A stretch of 64,000 nt of DNA from an uncultured Paracoccaceae bacterium. Its GTDB lineage: Bacteria; Pseudomonadota; Alphaproteobacteria; Rhodobacterales; Rhodobacteraceae. The first letter of the stretch is position 1, and each line of letters starts with the position of its first letter. This document shows, piece after piece, positions 1 through 9,386 of this stretch. Under the pieces are notes generated by a model. It was not told where the DNA came from. It was given only the letters and a program-made list of their open reading frames with translations, and ran no database searches. The translations under genes and the position numbers were made by a program. The DNA is taken from positions 1 to 64,000 of the forward strand of contig CANLSM010000001.1 in NCBI GenBank assembly GCA_947493745.1, given 5' to 3'.

Positions 1-259
1 TAACTTCCTCTTGAAAATGGGCCTCATTTGTCGAAGCAGACCTTGGCGCAGACTGCAGCATTGGTCAAACTGGGCTCGAAGCCGACATCCAGTAACCTCA
101 CTCGATGCTACGACGCAGCTCGCCATAGAAGACATGCGCTGCGCTCCAATGCTCTTGTGGCAGTGAACATTGAATTGGGGGACAGATCTGCCCTTTTCAG
201 AAATTGCACGAATGAAGTATTCTTCACGAGTTACGCCGAATTGACTGGGAGGGTGCCAG
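1..259. other. Left edge without a supported gene
   Basis: No convincing coding region is seen. A 97-codon frame starting with TTG at 28 runs through this stretch, but it lacks a clear ribosome binding site, has unremarkable composition and overlaps the better-supported gene at 260. The segment is probably intergenic or degraded island DNA. The only useful signal is the GGGAGGGTG ribosome binding site near 248-254 that serves the next gene. Confidence 0.4.
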
Positions 260-844
260 ATGATGGAAGCTTGGATAGGACTTGCAGGCGTAATTGTCGG
301 GAGCTTCATAACAATCTCTAAAGACACATGGTTGTCTTGGATCGAACGACGGCGCAGCGGATCCTACGCAGCGATCCGGCTCACCTGCACTTTGGAAGAA
401 TATGCAGATAAATGTATCGATGTGGTACTTGATGATGGTACCGCCTATGGACAACCGGCTGGGCGAACCGACGACGGACAAGAGTATCATGCAGCTCAAG
501 CGGAGCTTCCTGCGCCCCCAGATTATCCAGACGATATTGACTGGCGAAGCCTCAATGAACCTTTGATGCACCGCGTATTGGCTCTGCCGAACATGGCTAG
601 GAGTACTGATCGCCACATCGACATCGCCGCTGAACATGCTTTCCCACCATACTACGAGGAGGCTTTCGAAGCTCGCCAGAAGGGTTACGCTCACCTCGGC
701 ATTGAAGCTTTGGAAACGGCGAAAGAGCTGCGCCAGCGATTCAAAATAAGTGCTAAAGGGCGAACTGATTTGAACGTCGATTGGGACGCGGAGGCCTTCC
801 TACGCGACAGGCTGGCCAGGTTGAAGGGTACGGTTCAATCATGA
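260..844 (+). CDS. Hypothetical protein with one N-terminal membrane segment
   Basis: A 194-residue protein of no recognised family. Residues 4-21 form a hydrophobic segment (LAGVIVGSFI), followed by a basic stretch (ERRRSG) that suggests a single membrane anchor with the rest in the cytoplasm. The remainder is soluble and rich in Glu, Asp and Arg, with a likely helical C-terminal half. The start ATG at 260, or the ATG at 263, follows a good GGGAGGGTG site. It lies in an A+T-richer region with an ATPase and an integrase, so it is probably island cargo. Its role cannot be inferred. Confidence 0.6.
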   Translation: MMEAWIGLAGVIVGSFITISKDTWLSWIERRRSGSYAAIRLTCTLEEYADKCIDVVLDDGTAYGQPAGRTDDGQEYHAAQAELPAPPDYPDDIDWRSLNEPLMHRVLALPNMARSTDRHIDIAAEHAFPPYYEEAFEARQKGYAHLGIEALETAKELRQRFKISAKGRTDLNVDWDAEAFLRDRLARLKGTVQS

Positions 845-1032
845 TCAGCCTGCTGGTCTACGACCCGGTTGCTTAGGACGGCCAAATGTGTGCTTACAAG
901 CGTTGGATCCGACGCTGCGGCGCAGCCCGATGAACTGGGCTTTCGCGGCCCGCGAGTTCCCGGAAGGGGTTTCAACTACAGCCTGAAGCGGGTAATTCTT
1001 GGCAGTGTTTCGTCGAATACGGGTGCTAATAC

Positions 1033-3063
1033 TTGATCAAGATAGATTTTCATATTCACACCAAACCGAGCATCCTCGATGCAGCATTCGAATTTTCCCA
1101 AGCAAGGCTGGACGAATATATTGCGAGTGCAGGCCTCGATTGCATTGCGATCACCAATCACAATCTGTTCGACAAGGAGCAGTATGTAACGATCAAAAAC
1201 GCCGTTTGTGTACCAGTCTTTCCGGGCATTGAAGTTGATCTTTGCAAGGCACAAATCCTTGTGTTTGCCGACGGGCAAGACCTCGATGGATTTGAGGCAA
1301 AGTGTAGTCGCGTCTCGGCTAGTTGTGCAGAAATAGGAGCCTCGGTCTCCATTGAAGAGTTCAAAGACATTTTTGGCGATTTGAACGAGTACATCTTGAT
1401 TCCTCACTATGACAAAAAGCCAGCCATAGATGAGGCCACGCTTTCCCAACTTGCCCCACATGTGACGTCAGGGGAGGTGAGCAGCGCAAAGAAGTTCATT
1501 TACTGCATGAACAGTACTGAGAGGTTAGTCCCGGTGTACTTTAGTGACTGTCGTGTACGGGACGATCTTGATCCATTGCCCACGCGACAAACCTACTTGG
1601 AATGCAGCGAACCGACTTTTAGAGCGATAAAGGAGTGCCTTCGCGACAAATCCAAGGTTGCGCTTTCAAGAGCAGACGGCAACCGATTGTTTCAAGTATT
1701 CGAGAACGGCCAACAACTTTCAACAGGTCTGAATGTCATCTTGGGAGACAGGTCATCCGGAAAGTCACATACACTAGAGTCGCTGAAGAAACGGTTTCCT
1801 GAGTCGTACCACATCCGGCAATTTGCTTTGGTCGCCAGAGATACAGAAGAAGATGAGAGGAAATTCAATTCGTACCTGACCCGCAAGCAGGGTCTCTTTT
1901 CGAAAGACTATCTCACTGCTCTACAACAGGTCATTGAGGATGTTATGAACATCGACCTAGAAGAGGATGAGCGTCAGGTCGAGGCGTATCTCTCTTCGCT
2001 GTTGGACTTTGCCCGTGAGCGGGAAAGACATGACGCTTTCTCAAAAGCCAAAATCTACAGTGAAGACCCATTTCCTGATCGGAACCTTAAGGGCCTCCAA
2101 GACCTGATCGCTTCGACGAAGAACCTTATCAGCAATGTTGAGTTCAAGGAGACCATTGCCAAGCATGTTGCTCGTGATAACCTTATCGCTCTCTATGTCG
2201 ACCTTATGCAGAAATATGCTAGCCAAGAAGAGCTGAGACTGAAAAGGGCTTGGGTCAACGACCTTGTCCAGAACATTAAGTCGAAGCTCCAACTGCGGTC
2301 GGCAGCCCCGAGGATATCCGACGTCGACTTGTATGATGTTGCTTTGAACAAGAGGAAGATCAGCAAATTTGAAGGCATATCAAAACTTGCGCAGACGCCA
2401 AAGACTCCGCTCCGCAAGAGTATGCGCGGTTTCTCCGTCGTGGCCGAAGTCGGGCCCTTCAGGGGTGCCCAAGAAATTTGGAACGTGCTCAGGCGACGCC
2501 AGGCGTCGTTCGCGAATGCATTCAAGGCATACGATGAACCCAACAAGTTTTTGCAAGAGTTGAAAGCAATTGGCGGAGATGTGAAACCCCCTGATTTCTC
2601 AAAGTACTTCGTTAAAATCGACTATCGCATCCTGAACAAGGATGGATTTGATGCGTCGGGTGGGGAAAGATCGGAGTTCTTCCTACTCGACGAGATTGAA
2701 GGTGCTGCGGAACACGAAATGCTGTTGATCGATGAACCTGAGTCGTCTTTTGACAACTCGTTCCTGAAAGACGACGTGAACGCACTCATCAAAGAAATGG
2801 CAAAGAAGATGCCTGTTGTGGTGGTGACGCATAATAACACTGTCGGCATGACTATTAAGCCAGACTATTTGCTGTTTACTCAGAAGACCATTGAAGAGGG
2901 TGAGGTCGTTTGGCGCACATACTCAGGCTATCCTACCAGCAAAAACCTGAAATCTCCGGACGGCAAGCAGGTAGATACTCTTGATATATTGCTTGGAAGT
3001 CTGGAAGCGGGTTCAGAAGCCTATGACGAAAGAAGGCGGAGCTATGAAAATCTTAAAGATTGA
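1033..3063 (+). CDS. PHP-domain/ABC-type ATPase fusion protein (candidate defence or conflict ATPase)
   Basis: A 676-residue protein with two parts. Residues 1-180 look like a PHP metal-dependent phosphoesterase domain: HIH at 7-9, NHN around 43, PGIE at 64-67 and a His in IPHYD near 125. The usual last motif (Asp-x-His) reads SDCR at 171-174, so one ligand looks replaced. From about 225 on is an SMC/RecF-like ABC ATPase: Walker A GDRSSGKS at 238-245, a long charged helical insertion, signature ASGGERS near 541, Walker B LLIDEPESSFD near 564, and H-loop VTHNN near 600. PHP-ABC fusions such as TrlF are described in bacterial conflict systems; whether this one acts on nucleic acid is inference. 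The start is TTG, directly after an in-frame stop at 1027. Base composition is A+T-richer than the flanking chromosome. Confidence 0.75.
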   Translation: MIKIDFHIHTKPSILDAAFEFSQARLDEYIASAGLDCIAITNHNLFDKEQYVTIKNAVCVPVFPGIEVDLCKAQILVFADGQDLDGFEAKCSRVSASCAEIGASVSIEEFKDIFGDLNEYILIPHYDKKPAIDEATLSQLAPHVTSGEVSSAKKFIYCMNSTERLVPVYFSDCRVRDDLDPLPTRQTYLECSEPTFRAIKECLRDKSKVALSRADGNRLFQVFENGQQLSTGLNVILGDRSSGKSHTLESLKKRFPESYHIRQFALVARDTEEDERKFNSYLTRKQGLFSKDYLTALQQVIEDVMNIDLEEDERQVEAYLSSLLDFARERERHDAFSKAKIYSEDPFPDRNLKGLQDLIASTKNLISNVEFKETIAKHVARDNLIALYVDLMQKYASQEELRLKRAWVNDLVQNIKSKLQLRSAAPRISDVDLYDVALNKRKISKFEGISKLAQTPKTPLRKSMRGFSVVAEVGPFRGAQEIWNVLRRRQASFANAFKAYDEPNKFLQELKAIGGDVKPPDFSKYFVKIDYRILNKDGFDASGGERSEFFLLDEIEGAAEHEMLLIDEPESSFDNSFLKDDVNALIKEMAKKMPVVVVTHNNTVGMTIKPDYLLFTQKTIEEGEVVWRTYSGYPTSKNLKSPDGKQVDTLDILLGSLEAGSEAYDERRRSYENLKD

Positions 3064-3340
3064 AAACGGAAATGGCTATTTTTACCTTCAGCATGACAGC
3101 GAGTGGCAGCCCATCGACGCGATTGACAAGACTGCATTGCTTAAGCTCTTGGACCTGTATTTGGAAAACGACGTGGAGATGGATTCCCCAGATGATCAGA
3201 GCGTGAGCAATCAGGCGCATGCTATCATTTATCGTGGCATCTTTGATAAGTTATCGCAGCTTACCGATGAAAAGAGCAGGTTTAAGGATGAGAGCGAAAC
3301 CCTCTACCTCGATGAGATGAAGAAATACGCTACCCAGTGA
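3044..3340 (+). CDS. Small acidic protein overlapping the PHP-ATPase gene
   Basis: A 98-residue soluble protein without a recognised domain, rich in Asp and Glu and predicted mainly helical, beginning MKILKIENG. The ATG at 3044 lies 20 bases inside the end of the ATPase gene and is preceded by AAGGCGGAG, so the two are almost certainly translationally coupled. A longer in-frame frame from 2981 exists but would lie wholly inside the ATPase gene. Fixed overlap with a large ATPase suggests a partner, adaptor or inhibitor subunit. Function is unknown. Confidence 0.65.
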   Translation: MKILKIENGNGYFYLQHDSEWQPIDAIDKTALLKLLDLYLENDVEMDSPDDQSVSNQAHAIIYRGIFDKLSQLTDEKSRFKDESETLYLDEMKKYATQ

Positions 3341-3429
3341 ACGGTCCACCGCAGCAGCCGCGCTCCACATTTTTTTCTGTTACTTGGATGAATGTCAGCT
3401 TTGGTATCTGCTCGACTTCGATTGGCACC

Positions 3430-3471
3430 GCAGCGAATGACGGCTTCCCGCCCGAACCAGACATTCGCAGC
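3430..3471. repeat. Palindromic repeat-like element
   Basis: The left arm GCAGCGAATG (3430-3439) and the right arm CATTCGCAGC (3462-3471) are inverted copies with one mismatch, separated by 22 bases that include GGCTTCCCGCCC. I recall intergenic palindromes of this form being common in alphaproteobacterial genomes, but no other copy is seen in this window. It sits in the 219-base gap between the ATPase pair and the convergent integrase gene. Confidence 0.45.
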
Positions 3472-3559
3472 ATTTTGTAGGAAGGTCTGCAATGCGTTTC
3501 TGGCCATACCCAATCTCTTGAACGAAGCTGTCCAACGACGTGACTGTCGCCACGCCGCG

Positions 3560-4741
3560 TCATGCTGAGGACAGAGTTACAACATTCGCCGCAATGTCAC
3601 GCGCATTCGCAACCGTCGCCCATGCCTCCATAAGTGTCCGTCGCTTGTCGAACAGGTCAGACCGCGCATAGGCGGCTTCTGCTTTGTCCTTAATTCCATG
3701 AGCTAACGCCGCTTCGATCACTTCGCGCGGAAAGCCGGTGGTTTCGCCCGCCCAATCGCGGAAGGTCGAACGGAAGCCATGAACAGTGATATCTTGGCGT
3801 TCCATGCGACGCAGAACGGCAGTCATGCTCATGTCGGAGATCGGCTTGTCGGGTTTTGCCTCACTTTCGAAGGTTAGCTTGTCGCCGCCTCGTTTGCCGC
3901 CAAGCAAAGCAAGCGCCGCCTCGGAAAGCGGCACGCGGTGCTCTCTACCAGCTTTCATGCGGTTTGCCGGGATCGTCCAAACCTTTGCTTCAAGGTCAAT
4001 CTCGGCCCATGTCGCGCCCCGCGTCTCGCCCGAGCGTGATGCCGTTAGAATCGTGAAGCCCAAGGCGCGCGCCGCCACACCTTCTCGGGTTTCCAATTGC
4101 GCCATGAAGTTTCCTATCTCGGCATGAGGCAAGGCGGGATGGTGTTTGACTGCCCGCACTTTCGTGGGCTTGGGCAAGAGGTGATCCAGATGCCCGCGCC
4201 AGCGGGCCGGATTGTCGCCCGTGCGGATGCCCAGAGCCGATGCATAATCTAGCACCGCTTCTATACGTTGTCGGACGCGGTTTGCGGTCTCGGGCTTGAC
4301 TGACCAGATCGGGGTCAGCGCGGCGATCACGTCGGCGGTCTCGATCTTGGCAACTTGAGCCTGTCCGATCTTTGGGAAAGCATAGGCTTCCAACGTGGAT
4401 GTCCATTGCGCCGCGTGTTTGGCGTTCTTCCAGCCGGGACGTTTGCTTTCGATCAGTTCGAGAGCTGCATACTTGAAGGTCTTGGGCTTTGCTTGTCGCT
4501 TCTTCGCAATCGGGTCTTCGCCCTCGGCGATGAGGCGACGCGCCTCAGATGCGCGGTCGCGGGCCATTGCTAGGCTCACGTCGGGATACGACCCGAGGCC
4601 CAGATCACGCCGCCGCCCTTTCACCTGATAGCGCAGAACCCATGACCGCGATCCTGATGGCTTGACATAGAGGAAAAGCCCACGCCCGTCACCATGACGC
4701 CCGGGGCCTGCCGTCTTCACTTTCTGCGCGCTTAAGATCAT
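3560..4741 (-). CDS. P4-type tyrosine recombinase (integrase)
   Basis: A 393-residue site-specific recombinase that would catalyse integration and excision of a genomic island. The N-terminus (residues 1-80) is the DUF4102 arm-binding domain typical of P4-like integrases, with the motifs DGRGLFLYV and LGLGSYPDVSLAMAR. The C-terminal catalytic domain shows the expected Arg (TASRSGETRG), the HGFRSTFRDW box (His-x-x-Arg), a later His (ALAHG) and the nucleophilic Tyr in AAYARSD. Length is normal for the family and no break is visible, so it may be active. No tRNA gene lies beside it in this window, so the attachment site is not identified. It marks the right end of the island at 1-4741. Confidence 0.93.
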   Translation of the reverse strand: MILSAQKVKTAGPGRHGDGRGLFLYVKPSGSRSWVLRYQVKGRRRDLGLGSYPDVSLAMARDRASEARRLIAEGEDPIAKKRQAKPKTFKYAALELIESKRPGWKNAKHAAQWTSTLEAYAFPKIGQAQVAKIETADVIAALTPIWSVKPETANRVRQRIEAVLDYASALGIRTGDNPARWRGHLDHLLPKPTKVRAVKHHPALPHAEIGNFMAQLETREGVAARALGFTILTASRSGETRGATWAEIDLEAKVWTIPANRMKAGREHRVPLSEAALALLGGKRGGDKLTFESEAKPDKPISDMSMTAVLRRMERQDITVHGFRSTFRDWAGETTGFPREVIEAALAHGIKDKAEAAYARSDLFDKRRTLMEAWATVANARDIAANVVTLSSA

Positions 4742-5041
4742 ACCGTTCCCACATTTGTTCCCACACTTTTTCTCGATTTAGGGTGGACGGGCACGAACTT
4801 CAATGGTCGAGAACGAATATATCTATATGACATATATTGTATATTCTTGTTTCAGACGAGTTCACGCGAACCGCAGAAAACACGGGTTATACGGACTTCG
4901 TCTCCGCCACCTGCCAATTCTGCTTGGTGCTGATAGCCCCCAATGGGTATGTTTGCGGGCCGCTTGGGGCGCGGAACTCCTGCACTGCGGAATGGGATCC
5001 GAGACATTTGTGTTTCGAGCCAGCCTCGACTGAGCCGCTCC
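4742..5041. other. Gap between the island integrase and the catabolic operon
   Basis: About 300 bases without a convincing gene. The part next to the integrase carries two direct repeats (listed separately) and an A+T-rich tract at 4810-4850 that could hold the integrase promoter. Short frames on the + strand (for example 4803-5033) have no family resemblance and are judged spurious. No tRNA or tmRNA end was recognised. Confidence 0.5.
4745..4765. repeat. Two direct repeats at the integrase start
   Basis: GTTCCCACA occurs at 4745-4753 and again at 4757-4765, separated by TTT, only 3 bases upstream of the integrase start codon at 4741. Short direct repeats at this place are plausible arm-type binding sites for the integrase, or an operator by which it limits its own expression. 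This assignment is inference. Confidence 0.5.
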
Positions 5042-5911
5042 CTAGGTCTCGGCGACGAGGGTCACGTCGAATTCCACGTGCAGGAAGGGATCTGTCACAT
5101 TGCCTGAAATCTCCATACCGTCCGGAAACTCCCCGGCGGGTCGCTCGACATATGTCATCACGAGATCGTTGCGGACGCCAAAGACAGTGTCCTGATCGAG
5201 ATAGGGGTCATCGTCGGGAAAGATTTCCGTGACCAGCGAGCGATATCCGGGTGCTGTCACAATGTAATGCAGGTGCGATGGTCGCCACGGATGCCGACCA
5301 CAGGCACGCAGGATGTCACCAACCGGTCCATCGGAGGGAACTGTGTATTCCACCGGCTTTACGGTCGTGAAGGCATAGCGTCCGTCCGCGCCGACCTTCA
5401 TCAGCCCGTGAAATGAGTACATGTCCTGTTCATCGTCCTGGCTCGCATAGAGCCCGTTGGGCGCGGTCTGCCAGATATCGAGCTCAGCCCCGGCAATGGG
5501 TTTGCCGTCCACGTCCTTGATCATGCCTTCGGCCAACAGGACGGGACCACCATAATGGCGCTTCATATCGCCTCCGATCGCCAGCGGCGGCGCGCCTGAG
5601 ACATGAAACGGACCGAGCACGGATGAACTCGTCGCCTCGGGGCTCGAATGCAGCATATCGACCAGTGAGGACATGCCAAGGACGTCGGAGGCCAGAACGA
5701 ACTCGTGCCGGTCCTTGGTCTCGACAGCGGCGCAGCCTTCCAGGAAGGCGATGCCCGCCCGCCATTCATCATGGGTCAGGTTGGTCTCGCGTGCGAAATC
5801 ATGAAGGTGCCTGACGAGCGCGCCCATGATCTCACGAATGCGCGGCTCGGTATCCTTGGCCAGATAGCTCATGAAGACATCGGTGATGTTGTCCTTCGTG
5901 ACCGTGCGCAT
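5042..5911 (-). CDS. Intradiol ring-cleavage dioxygenase (hydroxyquinol/catechol 1,2-dioxygenase family)
   Basis: A 289-residue non-haem Fe(III) enzyme expected to open an ortho-dihydroxylated aromatic ring to a muconate or maleylacetate product. Residues 1-95 are the helical N-terminal dimerisation domain. The catalytic part has LGPFHV, DIWQTAPNGLY (first Tyr ligand), KPVEYTVPSDGPVG (second Tyr) and HPWRPSHLHY (two His ligands). The length suits hydroxyquinol or catechol 1,2-dioxygenases, but the exact substrate is not fixed by the sequence. It is the last gene of a leftward operon with a TRAP transporter 11 bases upstream. No maleylacetate reductase or muconate cycloisomerase is nearby. Confidence 0.88.
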   Translation of the reverse strand: MRTVTKDNITDVFMSYLAKDTEPRIREIMGALVRHLHDFARETNLTHDEWRAGIAFLEGCAAVETKDRHEFVLASDVLGMSSLVDMLHSSPEATSSSVLGPFHVSGAPPLAIGGDMKRHYGGPVLLAEGMIKDVDGKPIAGAELDIWQTAPNGLYASQDDEQDMYSFHGLMKVGADGRYAFTTVKPVEYTVPSDGPVGDILRACGRHPWRPSHLHYIVTAPGYRSLVTEIFPDDDPYLDQDTVFGVRNDLVMTYVERPAGEFPDGMEISGNVTDPFLHVEFDVTLVAET

Positions 5912-5922
5912 CGGGTACCTCC

Positions 5923-7227
5923 TTAGATCAGGGCAAGGCTGAGGATCGGGAACTCGATCAATATGAAAAGAACGATCAGCATGACAAAGGCGAAGGGCAG
6001 CGCGCCCATGAAGACGTCTTTCAGCGATATGCGATCATCATTGATCGTGGACTTGATCACAAAGCAGGATATGCCAAGCGGTGGTGTAAGCAATCCTATT
6101 TCCGCGCCGACAACGGTGATGATACCGAACCAGATCAGCGACATATCAAGCGTCTCTACCAATGGCAGGAACAGCGGGACCACGATCAGGATGATCGATG
6201 CCGTATCCAGCAGCGTGCCCAGAAACAGCATCAGCAGGACGTAAAGCAACATGATGGACCAGAACGAGGCAGAGTTGCCGGCCAGCAGGTCCTGAAGCTG
6301 ATTTGGCAGTCCTGCCAGACCGAGCATGCGGCTGTAGATCGAGGCGGCCGTGATAAGAAAGAGGATGGCCGCGGTGATGTGGCCGGTCTCCAGCAAGGCA
6401 TCCCAGAAGGCCTTTGCCGACATTGATTTTCGGATCAACGCGATGACAAGTGCGACCAGTGCTCCGGCGGCGCCCGCCTCGACCGCCGTCAGCCAGCCGG
6501 TGTAGATGCCGCCAAGCACCACACCGATCAGGAAAAGGGTCGGCAATGTCTTGGATGCAACCTCGCGCGCCGACATCCATTCAGTCTCTGCAACCGCACG
6601 TCCACCGAGGAAGCCAGGTGTGAAGCGGCCCATGAACCAGATTGCACCGACATAGGCGATTGCGAGCATGATGCCCGGGATAACCCCGGCAAGAAACATG
6701 TCCCCGACCGATTGCTCCGCCACGAAGGAATAGATGATCAGCATGGCAGATGGCGGGATGATCATGCCCAGCACCGAGGAGCCCGCGACAACACCCACAG
6801 CAAAGCGCGGGTTGTAATCCTGCGCCATCATCTGCGGCACCGAGACCTTGGTGAAGACCGAAGCCGACGCGATGGAGGAGCCGGTGACGGCCGCAAAGAC
6901 GGCATTGGCACCCACCGTGGCCATCCCGATGCCTCCCTTCACCTTTCGGAAGCGCATCGTCATGACCTCGTAGATATCCCTGCCCAGCCCGGCCTTCGAG
7001 ACGATCAGCCCCATGAAAGTAAAGAGCGGAATGGTGGCGAAGCTGTACTCCATCGCGGTGTCGCCCACAGCCACCTTCATCAGGTTCAGCGCCAGGGTGA
7101 AATTGTCGCGCATCAGCCAGATGGAAATCAGCGACACGACGCCAAGCGCCACGGGAATGTAGACGCCGGAATAGATCAGAAAGATGATCGCTATGACCGA
7201 GATGAGGCCGATCTCAATCGGGGTCAT
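5923..7227 (-). CDS. dctM: TRAP transporter large permease, DctM type
   Basis: A 434-residue inner-membrane protein with about 12 hydrophobic helices, the ion-coupled translocation subunit of a tripartite ATP-independent periplasmic transporter. DctM hallmarks are seen: GLIVSKAGLGRDIYEVM, SIASASVFTKVSVPQM, IIPPSAMLIIYSF, and LLTPPLGISCFVIK near the C-terminus. Its start overlaps the stop of the small permease by 4 bases (ATGA). The operon context suggests uptake of an aromatic acid or a related carboxylate. Confidence 0.93.
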   Translation of the reverse strand: MTPIEIGLISVIAIIFLIYSGVYIPVALGVVSLISIWLMRDNFTLALNLMKVAVGDTAMEYSFATIPLFTFMGLIVSKAGLGRDIYEVMTMRFRKVKGGIGMATVGANAVFAAVTGSSIASASVFTKVSVPQMMAQDYNPRFAVGVVAGSSVLGMIIPPSAMLIIYSFVAEQSVGDMFLAGVIPGIMLAIAYVGAIWFMGRFTPGFLGGRAVAETEWMSAREVASKTLPTLFLIGVVLGGIYTGWLTAVEAGAAGALVALVIALIRKSMSAKAFWDALLETGHITAAILFLITAASIYSRMLGLAGLPNQLQDLLAGNSASFWSIMLLYVLLMLFLGTLLDTASIILIVVPLFLPLVETLDMSLIWFGIITVVGAEIGLLTPPLGISCFVIKSTINDDRISLKDVFMGALPFAFVMLIVLFILIEFPILSLALI

Positions 7228-7775
7228 TCGGGCGGCTCATCATGTTCCGGCGCACGGATCAACTGCGGGCGATCCTGTGCTGTGATGACCTTGAGGGTGA
7301 AGATCAGGCAGGCAAGCGCCGTTCCCGTCGCGATGACCAGTTTCACCGGCCACCATGGCAACGTGAACAGACCGGGGACGCCAAAATAATCCTGCGTGTC
7401 CCACATGTGCAGAAATTCAGGGAAGGTGATGTAGGCGATCAGCCCCATGAAGATTGCAGATATGGCATTGATGATGCGCCGCACGCCGGCGGTCAGGCCC
7501 GGGCGACGCGCGTGCATGAGGTTGAGAAACCCGTCGGATCTGGTCAACCGGTCCACCCGGACGACGTCTGCCAGTTGCAAAAAGACGATCAGCACCACGG
7601 AGAACTGGACCATCTCGTAGGTACCCCGCAGCGGCGCGGAAAACAGGCCGCGGGCGATCACGTCAACATTGAGGATGACCACCAACGCCAGCACCACAAG
7701 CGTGCCGAGGGCGTTGGCGGCAATTGCAAGGGCGTTGGCGATCCGCGAGAGGCCTGCAACAGCGGAGTTCAGCAT
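7224..7775 (-). CDS. dctQ: TRAP transporter small permease, DctQ type
   Basis: A 183-residue inner-membrane protein with four predicted helices. DctQ hallmarks are NVDVIARGLFSAPLRGTYE in the second helix region and FTLPWWPVKLV near the end. The ATG at 7775 is preferred over longer frames because it follows a GGGGGAAGGG ribosome site and because an extension would run into the coding region of the binding-protein gene. It is the small membrane partner of the DctM subunit downstream, with which it overlaps by 4 bases. Confidence 0.9.
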   Translation of the reverse strand: MLNSAVAGLSRIANALAIAANALGTLVVLALVVILNVDVIARGLFSAPLRGTYEMVQFSVVLIVFLQLADVVRVDRLTRSDGFLNLMHARRPGLTAGVRRIINAISAIFMGLIAYITFPEFLHMWDTQDYFGVPGLFTLPWWPVKLVIATGTALACLIFTLKVITAQDRPQLIRAPEHDEPPE

Positions 7776-7806
7776 GTCAGAGCCCTTCCCCCGGGTCGCC
7801 GGTCGG

Positions 7807-8880
7807 CTACTCCGCCGTCCAGTCACGCACTCCGGTGAACCCGGCGGATTGAAGTTTATCGAGATAGGCCGCCAGCATCTCGCTCCCTTGCTCGCCATTG
7901 CCGTTGAGTGTCGCGGCCCATTCCTGTGCCACATTGGGCATGGCATCTGCCCAGGCTGCCCGATCTTCGGCAGAAAGCTCGACAATCGTGCCACCGGCTT
8001 CGACATACGCATCCCTGGAGGCTGCGGCGCGGTCCATCGCGATCCCGGCGACGTGGTCGCGATAATCGATGGCCACGGCCTTGAGGACATCCTGAACCTC
8101 ACCGGGAAGCTTGGCCCAGTAATCGGCATTGACGGTGATGGTCTTGGAGTTCACCGCGCCCAGATCGGCGCGCAGCATGTAAGGCGCAACTTCGGCGATC
8201 TTGAAGGTCTTCGCCGCTTCGGGCCAGAGCATCCCGCAATCCACCAGCCCGGTTTGCAGCATGTTGTAGAAATCCGTCAGGCCGCCGCGCACGCCGGCTG
8301 CATCCTTGATGCCCTCCAGATAACGCAGGTTCAGTCCCGCCCCGGCGATCTTGCGGCCTTCGAGGTCCGCAACGGATGTCACGGTATCGCTGCAGAACAC
8401 CTGATAAGTGTCAAGAACAACGCCTGTTGCCAGGTAGACCTGGTTCTGGGCTGAAAACTCGTTTTGCATGGCTGGGTATTCGCGCGCGATCTCGTCTACC
8501 GCCTTGGCCACCGCGCGGGCATCGGATGCAACAAACGGAGTGGAGCCTGAGATACCCTGGCTCGGCAGTTTGGACGAGTGGAAGATGGTCGTGACGATAC
8601 CGATGTCACCCAAACCCAGCTGCACCCCTTCGAGAACGCCCTTGGGCTTCACGATGGAGCCGCCGTAATTCTCCTGCCAGTTCATCTTGTAGTTGCCGAC
8701 CTCGGCAAGGCGACGGTCAACTTCCGGAATGAAGAAATTCGTGAACTCCTTCACCCACAACGCACGGTCAGGATAGCCGTCGATCACGACAGCCGAGATG
8801 TTTTCCTGCGCGGCAGCGGGCAGCGCCATGGCGATCACAATGGCCGCGCCCATCAAACGGCCTTTGGTCCAGTTCTTCAT
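7807..8880 (-). CDS. dctP: TRAP transporter substrate-binding protein, DctP type
   Basis: A 357-residue periplasmic solute receptor. Residues 1-24 are a Sec signal peptide with cleavage likely after PAAA. The mature part has the DctP fold, including EGVQLGLGDIG, VADLEGRKIAGAG (the usual L-x-G-x-K-I-R region) and a ligand-contact region around QTGLVDCG. It delivers substrate to DctQM, encoded directly downstream. The ligand cannot be read from sequence, but the ring-cleavage dioxygenase in the operon points to an aromatic or dicarboxylic acid. Confidence 0.9.
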   Translation of the reverse strand: MKNWTKGRLMGAAIVIAMALPAAAQENISAVVIDGYPDRALWVKEFTNFFIPEVDRRLAEVGNYKMNWQENYGGSIVKPKGVLEGVQLGLGDIGIVTTIFHSSKLPSQGISGSTPFVASDARAVAKAVDEIAREYPAMQNEFSAQNQVYLATGVVLDTYQVFCSDTVTSVADLEGRKIAGAGLNLRYLEGIKDAAGVRGGLTDFYNMLQTGLVDCGMLWPEAAKTFKIAEVAPYMLRADLGAVNSKTITVNADYWAKLPGEVQDVLKAVAIDYRDHVAGIAMDRAAASRDAYVEAGGTIVELSAEDRAAWADAMPNVAQEWAATLNGNGEQGSEMLAAYLDKLQSAGFTGVRDWTAE

Positions 8881-8927
8881 TGTGTTTCCTCCCAGAAAGT
8901 CAGGCCTTGAGGCCTTGTCGATTTGTT

Positions 8928-9386
8928 TCAGTTGGTCTTGACCCAGTTGACCGTCAGGTCTGTCCCGGCCGCTTCAAAGAGCTTGGCGATGGCGCAGTAT
9001 TTCGCCGTTTCCACGCCTACGCGCGCCAGATCCTCCTGACTGGCGGACGTGTCGCAATTCACCGTGAGCGTGATTTCGGGAAATGGAACGTCGATCTCTT
9101 CCTCCATCAGAACGCCACGGCGGTCGAACCTGCAATCCGCGTCAATGGTGACCGTGCCAAGTTCGACACCCAGCCGATGCGCATTCTTGTGACCAATCAC
9201 GTTGGTGCAGGCAATGAGTGCCGTCATCGCGGCCTCTGTCGGCGAGGGCCCCAGATTTGTACCGCCCCGCTCGACGGGCTCGTCAATGACCACCCGAAGG
9301 TCGCGAACCGGGATTTCCGTGCGAGCATGGGTCGGACATTGTGCGGTGGCCCGGTAGGTCACGACGGTTTTCATTTTTACGGCCAC
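8928..9386 (-). CDS. OsmC family protein
   Basis: A 152-residue protein of the OsmC/Ohr fold, which includes Cys-dependent peroxidases. The family layout is clear: TNLGPSPTEAAMTALIACTNVIGH contains the first conserved Cys, and SAKYCA near residue 130 the second (KYCAIAKLF). Such proteins reduce organic hydroperoxides or act as accessory proteins in catabolic operons. It sits between the flavin reductase (13 bases upstream) and the TRAP receptor gene (47 bases downstream). A protective role during aromatic degradation is inference. Confidence 0.85.
   Translation of the reverse strand: MAVKMKTVVTYRATAQCPTHARTEIPVRDLRVVIDEPVERGGTNLGPSPTEAAMTALIACTNVIGHKNAHRLGVELGTVTIDADCRFDRRGVLMEEEIDVPFPEITLTVNCDTSASQEDLARVGVETAKYCAIAKLFEAAGTDLTVNWVKTN

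Follow-up and report, generated by a model that had tools for sequence, protein, structure and literature searches.

By profile comparison, two overlapping genes near the start of the window (the whole 64,000-nt stretch of DNA analysed here) are PDC-M49, a candidate defense system already catalogued in PADLOC. The pair is ordinary in kind as a catalogued candidate, yet it is well preserved and clearly mobile, and it would be simple to test. It probably forms a mobile immunity module, in which a PHP nuclease is fused to a Rad50-like ABC ATPase (protein A) and a small acidic protein (B) acts as a control or sensing partner. What is new here is the constancy of B after A, the overlap statistics, the borders and mobility of the cassette, the EndoQ-like character of the PHP part and a ligand swap that separates two clades; the catalogued candidate thereby gains a testable anatomy, with a constant pair, residues to mutate, a minimal cassette and natural broken copies.

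A constant, overlapping gene pair

Gene A (PDC-M49A; positions 1033–3063, + strand) starts at TTG and encodes a PHP-ABC ATPase of 676 residues, and gene B (PDC-M49B; 3044–3340, + strand) starts at ATG and encodes the acidic partner of 98 residues. In PADLOC-DB 2.0.0, A matched the PDC-M49A profile (PDLC04680) at E = 3.2e-271 over profile positions 1–674 of 674, and the adjoining B matched PDC-M49B (PDLC04682) at E = 2.2e-34 over positions 1–95 of 97. The window pair is thus like the catalogued system in both proteins, nearly over their full lengths, and in their adjacency, and no difference was found. The first-pass annotation had suspected an undescribed system with a small acidic protein of no known family; the acidity holds (net charge −9), the lack of a family gives way to the PDC-M49B match, and a “categorically new” system was rejected because PADLOC already has both profiles. 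PDC stands for phage defense candidate in the available part of PMC11514479, and the term is absent from the accessible text of the PADLOC server paper (PMC9252829). The name “PDC-M49” was not found in the main texts of the open-licence papers searched, and hence no published functional test was found.

The first 20 nt of B are the end of A (3044–3063, + strand), as the first pass had it, and B's purine-rich, ribosome-binding-site-like stretch lies inside A. Of 16 aligned loci, 13 have an overlap of exactly 20 nt and the other three have overlaps of 23, 26 and 47 nt; such a stretch precedes B's ATG in all 16. In L036 the overlap was measured from B's inner ATG, the database record starting B at an upstream ATG. 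This set, which also serves for the ABC motifs and metal ligands below, comprises loci with intact genes. Left out of it were L007 (A shortened by 130 residues at its N-terminus), L011 (contig ending inside A), L034, L035 and L039 (broken A), and L082.

Both genes are under purifying selection. Among the window and L002–L005, dN/dS of A was 0.04–0.15 in all ten pairs and that of B 0.04–0.09 in seven of ten, with dS saturated in three. Because both proteins match PADLOC profiles over their full lengths and dN/dS is low, chance can be excluded and the pair is taken, on this comparative evidence, to be real. Pairwise distances of A and B were closely correlated over the 16 loci (r = 0.977, with none of 2000 label permutations as high), a correlation that reflects mainly co-inheritance. 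An RNA-family scan of the window gave no match.

In each locus read in which A is followed by any sequence, B comes directly next, which agrees with the fixed small partner that had been predicted; homologues mostly without the small gene, the outcome named in advance as speaking against it, were not encountered among the loci read. Scanning genome contigs at the protein level yielded ten loci (L002–L011), with B following A in nine and L011 ending inside A. B also follows A in the eight plasmid loci first read (L032–L039), in both IMG/VR phage contigs (L040, L041), in an E. faecalis plasmid (L084) and in a proteobacterial genome (G899). In L038–L041, B was identified not by a profile but by position and alignment, or by position and annotation in L039; the B proteins of L038, L040 and L041 are 19–33% identical to that of the window by alignment.

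The pair is rare in genomes. A search with B in the order matched 5 of 380 genomes, three with A directly upstream (in one of them, G198, A is divided between two contigs) and two with decayed remnants that retain no complete copy of either gene (L052 in G330, L053 in G075). In the class, 1 of 385 genomes matched, the window's own, and in the phylum intact B was found in 2 of 398, both with A; these genome samples overlap. Scanning the order with the A profile, which scored at most two candidates per genome and may miss copies, found A, complete or split, in 3 of 390 genomes. The other 241 of the 244 matching genomes were rejected as cross-hits with best E-values of 5.7e-8 or weaker, which among the matches listed were partial PHP or ABC matches. 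One of the two decayed remnants lies near a tRNA-Arg; the other is, by eye, beside an IS3-type transposase and AbiE-like genes.

Among plasmids, 57 of 72,556 records matched A at E up to 1e-5 (45 from Enterococcus, 9 from Staphylococcus and 3 others; 27 mobilisable, 21 conjugative and 9 non-mobilisable), and 32 matched B at E up to 0.01. The B search does not reach the divergent B proteins of staphylococci and of some enterococci; the four plasmid loci of this type that were read (L036–L039) all have B. No match was found in 50,697 phage records. In IMG/VR, neither A alone nor the L010 protein gave a match; the A profile gave two loci, and the L041 protein found only its own contig again.

A broken or truncated A stands beside an intact B in L034, L035, L039, L083 and G198, and no intact A without B was found among the loci read. 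In G198 (L014, L054), A breaks off after about residue 611, and its remainder stands beside B on a second contig; further on past B in L054 lies a C5-/cytosine-methyltransferase-like gene (by eye). In L083, an E. faecium plasmid, A is without its N-terminal 300 or so residues, the PHP part included, and B is intact.

Architecture and relatives of the two proteins

Fold matches assign about the first 226 residues of A (1033–1710, + strand) to a PHP domain, a putative metal-dependent nuclease or phosphoesterase, and Foldseek, a profile search of the PDB and invariant motifs point to a Rad50/SMC/RecN-like ABC ATPase (1717–3060, + strand) whose Walker A and signature are separated by a helical insertion. 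The AF2 model of A, built with 13 sequences, has moderate whole-chain confidence (pLDDT 81.1, pTM 0.60), and each ten-residue block up to residue 210 averages at least 85 pLDDT. Pfam gave PHP and AAA/SMC signals on A, all sub-threshold (PHP at E = 0.004, under the gathering threshold). Ribosomal-protein matches of A from the database search were not significant.

The ABC motifs, described in the first pass as intact from Walker A to the H-loop, are indeed unbroken in the window and shared without change by all 16 aligned A proteins: Walker A (G238-x5-K244), Q263, the signature SGG (542–544), D567-E568, D574 and H600. VIA-align placed the ABC part near UvrA, ABCE1, SMC3 and many ABC transporter subunits at about Z 12, and Foldseek found RecN (4ad8, E = 3.7e-6) as best match and SMC heads as well. 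In the PDB profile search with A, the ABC transporter subunit 4yms ranked first (1.2e-7), followed by SMC (1e69, 3.2e-7) and Rad50 (3qku, 1.4e-6).

For the PHP part, the top VIA-align match was endonuclease Q (EndoQ, 7k30_A; Z 15.9, 217 residues aligned, rmsd 3.5), followed by PHP phosphoesterases at Z 14.7 (2anu) and 14.6 and then by PolC and Pol III; RNase AM scored Z 11.8. The top PHP match in Foldseek was 2anu (E = 5.6e-5). Nine positions of A correspond to what we take to be the usual metal-ligand positions of PHP enzymes. The presumed ligands H7, H9, H43, E67 and D172 are invariant in all 16 proteins, position 16 holds D except in L040 (E), and position 74 holds H except in the window and L002–L006 (Q). 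Positions 125 and 174 change together, with H125 and R174 in 13 proteins and E125 and H174 in the other three (L010, L037, L038). Window A therefore has presumed ligands at seven of the nine positions, with Q74 and R174 where histidine is usual, and since two positions are altered its catalysis is uncertain. Taken together, the alignment describes a presumed metal site that is conserved but re-wired, with PHP activity likely, not certain.

Protein B carries net negative charge in 15 of the 16 loci. Its AF2 model (pLDDT 89.2) has a beta-hairpin, a helix and a further helix of 40 residues. A fold search with this model gave no match with E up to 0.001, either in the PDB or against viral models, and a second structural comparison reached a best Z of 3.5. 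At E up to 1, Pfam gave no match to B and neither Pfam nor PADLOC linked it to a nuclease family; a sequence search of the PDB gave nothing informative, and a ferredoxin match in NCBIfam (E = 0.015) was not significant. As modelled, B is thus without a detectable known fold.

The nearest relatives of A lie among PHP-ATPases. Ppl was reportedly first described by Gao et al. 2020, and a classification of ABC ATPases was reportedly given by Krishnan et al. 2020. The available part of PMC12904381 presents Ppl as a single-gene system whose PHP part is a 3'-5' ssDNA exonuclease held by NTPs. Like Ppl, A has PHP and then ABC/NTPase fused in one chain; it differs in being paired with B and in length (676 residues against the 894 positions of the Ppl profile, PDLC02208). 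A did not match that profile at E up to 1, and the divergent relative L010 matched it only at 1.3e-4 at the ABC end, with the Ppl-like L015 protein as a control at 1.5e-17. A Ppl search in the window's own genome gave no match, and control genomes gave none either.

Three TrlF/Ppl-like proteins encoded in genomes of the window's bacterial family, L015 among them, gave E = 3.9e-14 in a profile comparison with 13 A proteins, colinear over PHP, linker and Walker A; no B-like gene was seen 3' of these three (frames of at least 60 aa, by eye). A also matched the TrlF family AAA-like ATPase (NCBIfam NF045780) at E = 1.2e-27, best over residues 3–427, sharing PHP plus ATPase with it but scoring 97.1 bits, far below the curated cut-off of 350. 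TrlF is probably named after the Photorhabdus trlR-trlF-trlG operon, for which the available part of PMC7554251 gives no mutations in trlF and leaves its role open.

Filing A under Ppl or TrlF was rejected because both profile tests failed. From these comparisons we regard A as a compact relative of TrlF/Ppl-type PHP-ATPases, and by analogy it plausibly works like Ppl, though it is no Ppl member by profile or gene number. If it does, the pair would show how the PHP-ATPase strategy can be shortened and given a second subunit, and what the small companion contributes.

With PARIS, Septu and Gabija, A has in common an OLD/Rad50-like ABC ATPase, reflected in weak PADLOC matches to AriA, PtuA and GajA. 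It differs from them in its nuclease-like part, a PHP domain N-terminal to the ATPase, and in the lack of a nuclease-family match for B. More than two strands are required for a Toprim fold; the B model has only two of at least three residues and, as noted, Pfam gave nothing for B at E up to 1, which gives no sign of the Toprim nuclease partner of PARIS.

Mobility and genomic surroundings

Sequence similarity between loci indicates that the pair moves as a cassette of 2.3–3.4 kb among islands, plasmids and two phage contigs, in line with the expectation that the unit lies on mobile elements. By blastn, window positions 71–3453 are 93.9% identical to a Roseovarius contig (L002), including PDC-S67, a candidate defense gene (260–844, + strand; PADLOC PDLC05063, E = 2.4e-55; PHROG 33426, E = 9.2e-18) that belongs to this longer cassette form. 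In three further loci the borders are 952–3407 (L003), 966–3452 (L004) and 1033–3355 (L005); these have A, B and short flanks in common with the window, and similarity stops short of PDC-S67. The core common to L003 and L004 thus falls within 952–3453, extended to position 71 in L002. Several plasmid copies lie beside transposase, resolvase or recombinase genes.

The island around the window copy carries a tyrosine integrase (3560–4741, − strand) with three Pfam domains (Arm-DNA-bind_3, Phage_int_M and Phage_integrase), the intact integrase that had been described next to the pair. The A+T-richer DNA reported there is also evident, with G+C of 0.477–0.485 over 1001–3000 against 0.547–0.647 per kilobase beyond 4 kb. 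Cassette and integrase are separate in relatives. The Roseovarius locus has no match to the window's integrase, and in G390, a genome of the window's genus, an 85% identical integrase sits in a region whose DNA shows no similarity to A or B. That region (L076, L078; G390:C2 73387–84976) is an 11.6-kb island with other cargo, flanked on either side by a copy of a 14-nt sequence; the 3' end of tRNA-Ser(GCT) carries one of these copies.

In the window, a probable attachment-site copy of 15 nt (4896–4910, + strand) is identical to the tRNA-Ser(GCT) 3'-end sequence. Because it sits right behind the integrase, where similarity to the G390 island stops, the sequence comparison supports an element integrated via tRNA-Ser(GCT). 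On contig C27, the window genome has its tRNA-Ser(GCT) with the matching end, followed by another recombinase-like gene (by eye). The window begins at base 1 of contig C1, and the island's left end therefore lies off the contig; a search for repeats within 1–9000 found no island ends, and no clean empty site was found in the region right of the island in relatives. The integrated island of the first-pass annotation is mostly right, but has its left end off the contig and a cassette that does not travel with this integrase in relatives. To the right of the island (5042–9386) lie dioxygenase-like and TRAP-type transporter genes, apparently ordinary catabolic ones (by eye).

Several copies adjoin defense genes, a point that the first pass had put forward for checking: an annotated or profile-supported defense gene is present in 9 of 20 neighborhoods and none was found in 11, a count set against no background. 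The nine are the window (PDC-S67), L002 (SoFic, PDC-S67), L004 (type I restriction-modification), L010 (Eco57I-type methylase), L032 (AbiH), L034 (abortive infection protein), L039 (AlwI restriction-modification, TIR) and the phage contigs L040 (type I restriction enzyme) and L041 (AbiD). Among the other 11, L003 has a STAND-like protein just under the Pfam cut-off, and L054 has the C5-methyltransferase-like gene recognised by eye. The 20 neighborhoods are the window, L002–L006, L008, L010, L032–L041, L054 and L082, and include related ones (window and L002; L034 and L035; L038 and L039); L007, L009 and L011 are on short contigs, and L083 and L084 are plasmids related to L034, and these five were not counted. 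Outside the window the profile scan covered 14 distinct flanking proteins only. This company is suggestive, not a measured enrichment.

Proposed function and alternatives

The occurrence of the pair on plasmids of enterococci and staphylococci, on islands of marine alphaproteobacteria and in phages suggests that it takes part in conflicts among mobile elements. For the mobile immunity module that we favor, we infer the nuclease activity, dimerisation, target, trigger, A–B complex and direction of B's effect. A would combine a PHP-type metal-dependent nuclease and a Rad50-like ABC ATPase in one chain and dimerise via the ATPase, which would gate the nuclease by nucleotide state and a nucleic-acid signal, as described for Ppl; candidate signals are ends, structures or nucleotide depletion during infection. 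Because B is translated from inside the 3' end of A, the two proteins would be made together. B would most likely bind the ABC/helical part of A and either hold the nuclease off or complete a sensing complex, and the module would target phages or plasmids.

A more specific version is a tentative proposal: a distinct two-subunit form of immunity, in which a compact PHP-ABC nuclease is tied by the 20-nt overlap to a small acidic licensing or inhibitory subunit of undescribed fold, with a metal site re-wired in two ways (H125/R174 or E125/H174).

The plasmid copies also bring to mind a toxin-antitoxin or plasmid-stabilising module, with A as a growth-arresting nuclease, B as its antitoxin, and phage resistance secondary or absent. 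We consider this unlikely. The 57 plasmid records and the prevailing negative charge of B would fit it, as would the five loci with decayed A and intact B (L034, L035, L039, L083, G198) set beside the finding that intact A never occurs without B in the loci read; that asymmetry is weak evidence, however, because A is seven times longer than B and random decay hits A first. Copies also exist on chromosomes and phages, some of them beside defense genes. To our knowledge, an ABC sensor of A's size would be unusual for an addiction toxin.

Quite doubtful is a variant in which the PHP part of A acts on RNA or nucleotides, not DNA, and, by degrading RNA of the host or a nucleotide signal, brings about abortive infection. 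PHP folds do include RNase AM and predicted phosphoesterases, and the changed ligands Q74 and R174 could agree with another substrate, but the closest PHP structure is a DNA endonuclease, EndoQ, and the ABC part resembles the DNA-acting Rad50, SMC, RecN and UvrA, with transporter subunits matching about equally. Finally, accessory DNA-repair or recombination proteins without an immune role are highly improbable: the ABC part is similar to RecN, Rad50 and UvrA and one chromosomal copy adjoins UmuDC-like genes (by eye), but the pair is very patchy (3 of 390 genomes of the order for whole or split A, 2 of 398 of the phylum for intact B) and its copies are mobile and decaying.
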